Origin: Bradymonas sediminis
GTDB taxonomy: Bacteria; Myxococcota_A; Bradymonadia; Bradymonadales; Bradymonadaceae
Assembly: GCF_003258315.1 (NCBI RefSeq)
Contig: NZ_CP030032.1
Location: forward strand, 1,092,001 to 1,156,000
Length of the DNA: 64,000 nt
Direction of reading: 5' to 3'
The position numbers and the translations under genes are program-made. The notes beneath the pieces are model-generated. The model was not told the DNA's origin and searched no databases. It saw only the letters and a list, made by a program, of their open reading frames with translations. Positions within the stretch are counted from its first letter, which is position 1. Every line of letters begins with the position of its first letter. Of the stretch, positions 28,641 through 30,326 are shown one piece after another.

Positions 28641-30326
28641 TCATTGCCGCGTGTAGATCCAATAGTGAAACTCACCGCTTCCAGGGCTGAACTTTTTGGT
28701 GAGTTTGTAGTTCGCCTCAAAGCGAGGGTCGGCGACGAGCTTGGGGTAGAAGCCGTATTCGCGGCGCGGCTTTAGTGTGCGGTTGCTCTTGCTGTGGACG
28801 GCGATCATCTTAGGTTTGAGCGTGATGACCCAATTGACATAGATCGACATATCCTTGTCCATCTCGTCGCTGGTGTAGCGCCAACTGTTGAGACAAAATG
28901 GGTCGGCGATTTGGGCGTCTGTGTGGAAGGGGGCGATGCCGGCGTCGCCAATAACAAACCAATCCTCGGGTCCCAGTCGCGCGTCGACCCACTTGCCGAG
29001 TTCGGCCCGCAGCGCCATACGCTTGGCATATTTGGCGCTATAGTCTTTTAGATATTTATTCTCGTTGGGGAGTTCGCCCTGCCAGATCAATACGGTGAAC
29101 AGAAATAAGAGGGCGGCTGCGCGGGTCGGGATGGCTCCCCACGCGTGTTTGACCCAACTCAGCGCGGAGACGCTTGCGAGGATGCTCAGGGCGGCGAATG
29201 CAACCATCGCCAGGCGCATCTCGTATGCAACGATCGTATCGGCGCCGTAGAGCAACACGGCATAGGCGAGTACCAGCGCGAAGAGCGCGGTGGCGCGGAT
29301 ATCTATTTTGCGCCAGGGAAATACAAGGGCCAGGAGGACCAGCAAAAATGCGTCGTCCCAATACCAGCCAAGCAGCGTCCATGGGCTGCCCGGGGCGTTA
29401 GCTTTGCAATAATAGGTGTTGGGTAAGAAGCGGCCGAAATATTGCCATCGCCATGCGAAATAGACGGTGTAGGGGAGCACGAAGGTCCCAGTTAATACGG
29501 TGATGGCCTGAACGATGGGTTTGAGGTTTTCGGTTGCGCCGGCTCTGTTTTTGAGAAGTCGCGTCGCGCCGACCGCGACGAGCGAGCCGAGGACAATGAT
29601 TCCGAAGATGGGGCCTTCGAGGCGTGTGAGTGCGGCTAAGAAGAGTGCGCCGCCGCATAGCGCGAAGAATACCGACGAGTCATGACGCTGCGCTAATGTC
29701 CATCGGGGCGCATCCGGGTCGGACTCGGCGCGGGGGGGGCGAATGCCAATCTGGGCGGATTCGCAGCCCACCATAAATAACCAGATCGCGGTGAGGCCCA
29801 GGCATAAATAGAGCGCGGTCTCCATGCCGCTGACTGCCCAGAGTGTGGTTCCGCGGTAGCCGGTGAGTAGTGCGGTTGGAAGAAGAGCGCCCAGTGGGCC
29901 GACCCAGCGTCGGGCGATTGCAAATGTGAGCATACACGTCAGCACCAGGGATGCTACGCCCACCAATTTTACCACGAAGACCGGGTCCAATCCTGATTTA
30001 TAACTCGCCGCGCCGATCAGAACGTATAAAAAATTTGAATAGCCCTCGACCGGAAAGTCACCGGGGTTCCACATCAATCCCTTGCCGGCGGCCATATTTC
30101 GTGCGTAGCGCAGGGTGATATAGGCGTCATCGGTTGTGAAAGTCCAAGCATTGCCGATTAGAATATAGAGTCGGTAGAGGAGCCAAGCGGCCAATAGGGC
30201 GGTCGTGCCCCAGAGTAGAGCTAACTTGGTTTTGTTTTGTTTTGTTTTGTTTTGTTTTGCGTTGCGTTGCGTTTCGGTGTGTGTGTGTGTGTGTGTGTGT
30301 GTGTGTGTGTCGTTGTCGGGTCGCAT
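28641..30326 (-). CDS. Multi-pass membrane protein, GT-C glycosyltransferase-like, start coded by simple repeats
   Basis: The 561-residue product has about ten hydrophobic segments between residues 35 and 420, after an N-terminal loop. TTDDAYITLRYARNMAAGKGLMWNPGDFPVEGYSNFLYVL has the DDAYIT and YSNFL signature of GT-C-fold (ArnT/PMT-like) glycosyltransferases and membrane mannosyltransferases. The C-terminal loop faces the periplasm. The only ATG that reaches this frame is at 30326, and the first about 35 codons are low-complexity THTHTH and KQNKTK, coded by the (GT)17 and (TTTTG)6 tracts. Loss or gain of a unit would shift the frame. The sugar substrate and acceptor are unknown. Confidence 0.78.
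   Translation of the reverse strand: MRPDNDTHTHTHTHTHTETQRNAKQNKTKQNKTKLALLWGTTALLAAWLLYRLYILIGNAWTFTTDDAYITLRYARNMAAGKGLMWNPGDFPVEGYSNFLYVLIGAASYKSGLDPVFVVKLVGVASLVLTCMLTFAIARRWVGPLGALLPTALLTGYRGTTLWAVSGMETALYLCLGLTAIWLFMVGCESAQIGIRPPRAESDPDAPRWTLAQRHDSSVFFALCGGALFLAALTRLEGPIFGIIVLGSLVAVGATRLLKNRAGATENLKPIVQAITVLTGTFVLPYTVYFAWRWQYFGRFLPNTYYCKANAPGSPWTLLGWYWDDAFLLVLLALVFPWRKIDIRATALFALVLAYAVLLYGADTIVAYEMRLAMVAFAALSILASVSALSWVKHAWGAIPTRAAALLFLFTVLIWQGELPNENKYLKDYSAKYAKRMALRAELGKWVDARLGPEDWFVIGDAGIAPFHTDAQIADPFCLNSWRYTSDEMDKDMSIYVNWVITLKPKMIAVHSKSNRTLKPRREYGFYPKLVADPRFEANYKLTKKFSPGSGEFHYWIYTRQ
30230..30310. repeat. Simple sequence repeats: (TTTTG)6 and (GT)17
   Basis: Six perfect TTTTG units (30230-30259) are followed by two CGTTG units and a short CGTTTCG joint, then 17 GT units (30277-30310). 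Both tracts lie inside the first codons of the glycosyltransferase-like gene on the minus strand. Neither 2 nor 5 is a multiple of three, so slippage of either tract shifts the reading frame. Confidence 0.95.

Follow-up and report, generated by a model that had tools for sequence, protein, structure and literature searches.

The window analysed here is a stretch of 64,000 nucleotides (positions 1,092,001-1,156,000) of the complete 5,045,683-bp chromosome of Bradymonas sediminis, a species with one sequenced genome. Strain FA350T, a facultative bacterial predator, was sequenced with Illumina and PacBio (PMC7460792). An open reading frame on the minus strand of the window begins with ATG CGA CCC GAC AAC GAC and runs directly into two simple-sequence tracts, (AC)17 and (AAAAC)6, separated by a short linker. 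Behind both tracts, in frame with the ATG at 30326, are 527 codons without a stop. The sequence-only reading of this DNA had placed (GT)17 and (TTTTG)6 inside a coding sequence, and both do lie in the 5' end of the ORF. The features of the locus are as follows (window coordinates).

28641-30326, minus strand: ORF of 561 codons, AftB-like GT-C membrane glycosyltransferase, assigned by profile search and predicted fold
30324-30326, minus strand: ATG, putative start codon; no other start codon precedes the tracts in this frame
30277-30310, minus strand: (AC)17 tract, (GT)17 on the plus strand, coding for Thr-His repeats
30259-30276, minus strand: linker CGAAACGCAACGCAACGC, made of degenerate CGCAA-type units with the same 5-base period as (AAAAC)6
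about 30229-30258, minus strand: (AAAAC)6 tract, (TTTTG)6 on the plus strand, coding for a Lys/Gln/Asn/Thr tail just before TM1
30192-30194, minus strand: TTG at residue 45, inside TM1, the earliest in-frame codon past the tracts that could serve as a start
30117-30131, minus strand: DDAYI motif, residues 66-70, with D67 invariant in an alignment of 33 homologues
30383-30406, minus strand: perfect 9-bp hairpin with no T-run, in the spacer that separates ATG 30326 from the upstream gene (RNA fold z -3.2)
30475-31233, minus strand: upstream gene, lipoprotein-like, on the same strand as the glycosyltransferase ORF

The encoded N-terminus reads MRPDND-THTHTHTHTHT-ETQRNAKQNKTKQNKTK-LALLWGTT..., followed by the DDAYI motif. 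The tracts occur well above chance. Shuffling the window 100 times with its dinucleotides preserved gave no match to (GT)8 and none to (TTTTG)4. Genome-wide, (GT)8 has 10 overlapping matches, all within the tract at 30277-30310, and (TTTTG)3 with one mismatch allowed matches only at the tract at 30229-30258. Whole-genome pattern searches for the same tracts in other genes found no second copy of either elsewhere in B. sediminis. In a sample of 1.26 Mb (25% of the genome), AC/GT tracts of 3 units occur 152 times, those of 4 units 6 times and the tract of 17 units once. Other dinucleotide tracts in the sample have at most 7 units and other pentamer tracts at most 3, and nothing else there is prominent, the other long simple sequence repeats being a few homopolymers, short hexamers and 9-mers. 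Long dinucleotide tracts had been described as rare in GC-rich bacteria of this kind, and this agrees with a scan of 379 Myxococcota genomes, only 6 of which have (AC)12 or longer.

By profile search and predicted fold, the product of the ORF belongs to the GT-C membrane glycosyltransferases and is a relative of AftB. On its own, the protein gave nothing above threshold against Pfam, NCBIfam and the PDB and no match when scanned against the genome contigs. A profile of 33 sequences, built from this protein and its Myxococcota homologues, matches mycobacterial AftB (9dlf) with an E-value of 2.8e-33, and the DD motifs are aligned. Among the homologues, 23 of 33 match the AftB family NF041481 at E-values up to 0.1 (best 5.7e-14), and many also match NCBIfam NF047440. 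The B. sediminis protein itself has no match to NF041481 and falls short of the curated AftB family cut-off, and we call it AftB-like rather than AftB. The AlphaFold2 model (pLDDT 84, pTM 0.87) is a multi-spanning helical bundle that aligns with known GT-C structures. Foldseek with this model returned ArnT (E 4.7e-9) and AftB (E 1.2e-8), and VIA returned a broad set of GT-C enzymes (Z 19-25, with 356-469 residues aligned among the best matches). Profile, model and both structural comparisons thus agree with the original suggestion of a membrane glycosyltransferase. D67 of the DDAYI motif, which aligns with the DD of AftB, is presumed by analogy to be the GT-C catalytic aspartate. The GT-C fold makes a role in surface glycosylation plausible, and the enzyme presumably acts on a cell-envelope glycan. 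The best homologues found, about 37% identical, come from a different family of the phylum, and the gene was not found in 20 genomes of the family to which B. sediminis itself belongs.

Where translation begins determines whether the tracts are coding. ATG 30326 is the only ATG, GTG or TTG before the tracts in the current frame, as had been pointed out from the sequence, and it has no Shine-Dalgarno (SD) site. The absence of an SD is not decisive, because only 30% of the long ATG ORFs of this genome have an SD-like core (10% in the background). On the other side, certainty about this codon is weakened because about 19% of random sites have an ATG in the 19 nt before them. The first codon that could serve after the tracts, TTG 30194, has no clear SD and would remove the front of TM1, and the next in-frame start, ATG 30095 (residue 78), is already past the presumed catalytic motif. 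The distance from start to DD motif is 27-50 residues in the homologues, mostly 30-43, and would be only 21 from TTG 30194. We infer that translation starts at ATG 30326.

With this start, the tracts code for residues 7-34. Structural alignments of the protein mostly begin at residues 24-45, and therefore most of the tract-coded residues are outside the fold. The AlphaFold2 model shows the Thr-His segment as disordered, and the N-terminal tails of the homologues are without conservation. Changes in the length of a tail that is outside the fold, disordered and unconserved should therefore affect the reading frame and not the enzyme.

The effect on the frame can be worked out exactly. An added AC unit shifts the frame by +2, and an added AAAAC unit by +5, which is +2 modulo 3, an identical shift. 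The linker CGAAACGCAACGCAACGC is free of stops in all frames. Because the shifts are equal and the DNA between the tracts can be read through in every frame, only the summed unit change counts. In an in silico frame table, the product is full length exactly when the changes in AC and AAAAC units add up to 0 modulo 3, and all other tract-length states give products of 28-72 amino acids. The sequenced state is ON. A change of one unit in either tract truncates the product, as had been predicted, and another change can restore it, which is the behavior that defines a translational contingency locus based on simple sequence repeats. Given ATG 30326 as the start, the locus also has the long, pure, non-triplet repeat in the 5' coding region that is characteristic of such loci.

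The same table contradicts a second part of the sequence-only reading, in which both tracts had to be in phase for the protein to be made and the pair formed a two-key switch. The frame simulation rules out this AND logic: there is no joint requirement for the two tracts, and the summed change modulo 3 decides instead. Since only the sum counts, the tracts are redundant: each can make good a slip in its neighbour. The two tracts are one additive register with two slip-prone parts. In the OFF register with a net change of -1 or +2 units, an upstream ATG (30541) or GTG (30529) is in frame with the enzyme. Both codons are in the end of the upstream gene without an SD, and we give them little weight.

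We propose the locus as a candidate for contingency switching, an AftB-like GT-C gene whose translation would be phase-variable through slipped-strand mispairing, and on the sequence we put the probability of this reading at roughly 0.58. Translation from ATG 30326 would pass through (AC)17 and (AAAAC)6, which would code for a dispensable cytoplasmic tail, and into the enzyme. Slipped-strand mispairing at replication would add or remove tract units; net changes divisible by 3 would give the enzyme, and all others a product of about 30-70 amino acids. In this way, small slips would probably turn the enzyme on or off cell by cell. Loops of 2 bases are corrected well by mismatch repair and loops of 5 bases poorly, and mutS and mutL are both present in the genome. 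The AC tract, with its shorter unit, would be policed by mismatch repair and the 5-bp AAAAC tract less so; because 5-base loops are poorly repaired, slips in the AAAAC tract could escape this control. The tracts are presumably unstable in cells, and switching would presumably be of benefit. Several findings count against this reading: ATG 30326 has no SD and could be accidental, no promoter was recognised, and classic phase-variable species carry sets of such loci, of which B. sediminis has none in the 25% sample.

Repeat-driven phase variation is known mainly from host-adapted pathogens with small genomes, and to our knowledge repeat-based gene switching has rarely been seen in the group to which Bradymonas belongs. 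A clear case in Bradymonas would show that bacteria living outside hosts also hedge their surfaces, possibly in response to phages, other predators or the defences of prey. Adjacent tracts with different units would also allow a direct test, at one locus, of how mismatch repair weights slips.

The repeats might instead have no adaptive role. A microsatellite that expanded by chance in the tolerant, disordered tail of a recently acquired gene would slip occasionally without consequence for selection, and this would fit a locus that is the sole one of its kind in the genome, a tail that is disordered in the model and unconserved, and the patchy distribution of the gene. However, a glycosyltransferase gene that opens with two adjoining tracts of different units has the classic contingency layout, and an AC tract of 17 units is far beyond the spectrum of this genome. 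In addition, most of the similar start-adjacent AC tracts described below for genus g100 belong to a single gene family. For these reasons we regard a purely neutral microsatellite as rather unlikely.

Two further possibilities concern initiation. CA repeats just after the start codon strongly enhance translation of both leadered and leaderless mRNAs in E. coli (Martin-Farmer and Janssen 1999, as described in PMC9031893). A CA-rich stretch behind the SD-less AUG of the B. sediminis gene could thus act mainly by raising initiation, with frame switching as a by-product, and the tract RNA is indeed predicted to be nearly unstructured. However, no other gene in the sampled 25% of the genome has such a tract, and enhancement needs no pure tract of 17 units. 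Enhancement is also compatible with switching, and the two may coexist; by analogy with E. coli, the AC tract may enhance initiation as a side effect. As the main function of the tract, we find it improbable. Slightly less can be said for true initiation at TTG 30194 or at some other codon behind the tracts. The repeats would then be in a 5' UTR, where they would tune transcription or translation and not the frame. ATG 30326 could be accidental, having no SD, and TTG 30194 is in frame. But TTG 30194 also lacks a clear SD, leaves only 21 residues before the DD motif where most credible homologue starts leave 30-43, and would delete the front of TM1, which aligns with other GT-C structures.

Several known systems resemble the proposed phase-variable glycosyltransferase gene. 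The closest functional kind, by sequence anatomy, is the coding-repeat contingency gene of the Haemophilus influenzae type. As in the lipopolysaccharide glycosyltransferase genes of H. influenzae, the repeat is in the 5' coding end, where a change in copy number shifts the frame; one such glycosyltransferase gene has (AGTC)14 immediately behind its presumptive start, and the hsdM gene is switched by a pentanucleotide tract (PMC2651432). In H. influenzae, however, there are single tetranucleotide tracts at many loci and the variation is proven, whereas in Bradymonas a compound AC and AAAAC tract occurs at apparently one locus, read from one genome. The hosts also differ, Bradymonas being a GC-rich, free-living predator. 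In the fucosyltransferase genes futA and futB of Helicobacter pylori, a tract in the 5' coding region likewise sets the in-frame or out-of-frame state (PMC2583950). There, the tract is a homopolymer of C and the enzymes belong to another glycosyltransferase family, which acts on Lewis antigens, in contrast to the GT-C enzyme and the di- and pentanucleotide units found here. The closest solved relative by profile is the mycobacterial terminal beta-(1->2)-arabinofuranosyltransferase AftB (9dlf/9dlh), which shares the GT-C fold and the DD motif. Unlike AftB, the Bradymonas protein searched by itself matches no model of NCBIfam or Pfam, and it need not act on an arabinan. The Bradymonas locus stands apart from these systems in its compound tract of two units that acts as an additive register, in its AftB-like GT-C target and in its host, a GC-rich, free-living predator.

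Start-adjacent AC tracts are also present in two Polyangiaceae-type genomes of genus g100, Polyangiaceae bacterium 354-166 bin 035 (G115) and Deltaproteobacteria bacterium J032 (G146). All six AC tracts of at least 7 units in these genomes sit 3-19 nt behind an ATG (L171/L157, L174/L161/L187, L177/L146/L185, L181/L189, L172/L147/L184 and L175/L164/L186, named L194-L199). A strong SD is visible at five of the six; the sixth, L175, is at a contig end, and its SD call is a contig-end artefact that was left out of the count. The chance of such an SD-ATG placement is about 2% per tract. The tracts are 9, 12, 12, 13, 15 and 17 units long; both genomes are draft metagenome-assembled genomes, and these lengths may be off. 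Behind every tract is a lipoprotein-like ORF in another frame, so that 6/6 are out of frame as assembled. Five of the six ORFs are clearly alike, mostly from one Cys-rich family, and the sixth is weakly similar. Further members of the family were found without long AC tracts, and two more (L192 and L193) have short or imperfect AC/GC tracts behind an SD-ATG, also out of frame; their sequences suggest decayed switches. The g100 genes are thus candidates for OFF states of a phase-variable lipoprotein family that would be mostly OFF. Programmed frameshifting is unlikely in these genes, because the register that would be needed differs between them.

The AC tracts examined in four other genomes (G004, G177, G204 and G316) did not have the SD-ATG-(AC)n layout. 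An (AC)9 in one of these, the relative G004, was considered as a counterpart of the Bradymonas tract and rejected; it is intergenic and unrelated. The g100 tracts lend indirect support, from within the phylum, to reading the Bradymonas locus as a switch. A broader and decidedly tentative proposal, which we hold to be doubtful at present, is that start-adjacent AC tracts mark an unrecognised contingency system of the Myxococcota. It would comprise the additive two-tract register of Bradymonas, with one repair-sensitive and one repair-insensitive tract, on an envelope glycosyltransferase, and the mostly OFF lipoprotein family of the Polyangiaceae type with its SD-ATG-(AC)n arrangement.

Upstream of the glycosyltransferase gene, the lipoprotein-like gene at 30475-31233 has a single paralogue 8 kb away, at about 39112-39867 (40% identity), and had no match in 38 relatives, so that it is present in 1 of the 39 genomes searched. 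The hairpin at 30383-30406 is possibly a terminator, an attenuator or another element. A scan for intrinsic terminators on the minus strand found none, a sigma-70 promoter scan recognised no promoter, and an Rfam search gave no match.

Other repeats were seen along the way. A G12 homopolymer at L113:5273 (genome position 1705273) lies some 90 nt behind one ORF and close to the 3' end of another, convergent ORF of 343 codons, and is a possible second unstable site of the genome. In L034, a GC-rich inverted repeat with a T12 run behind it is terminator-like. An array with 9-bp units, (GGCTCGGTC)6 and variants, is at L035:2677-2860 (genome about 602,700). Within the window, tandem arrays of 66-bp and 33-bp units occur at 467-672, 62178-62292 and 62474-62689, the last of which is 97% pure with 6.5 copies, and a 296-bp duplication is at 62013-62576.
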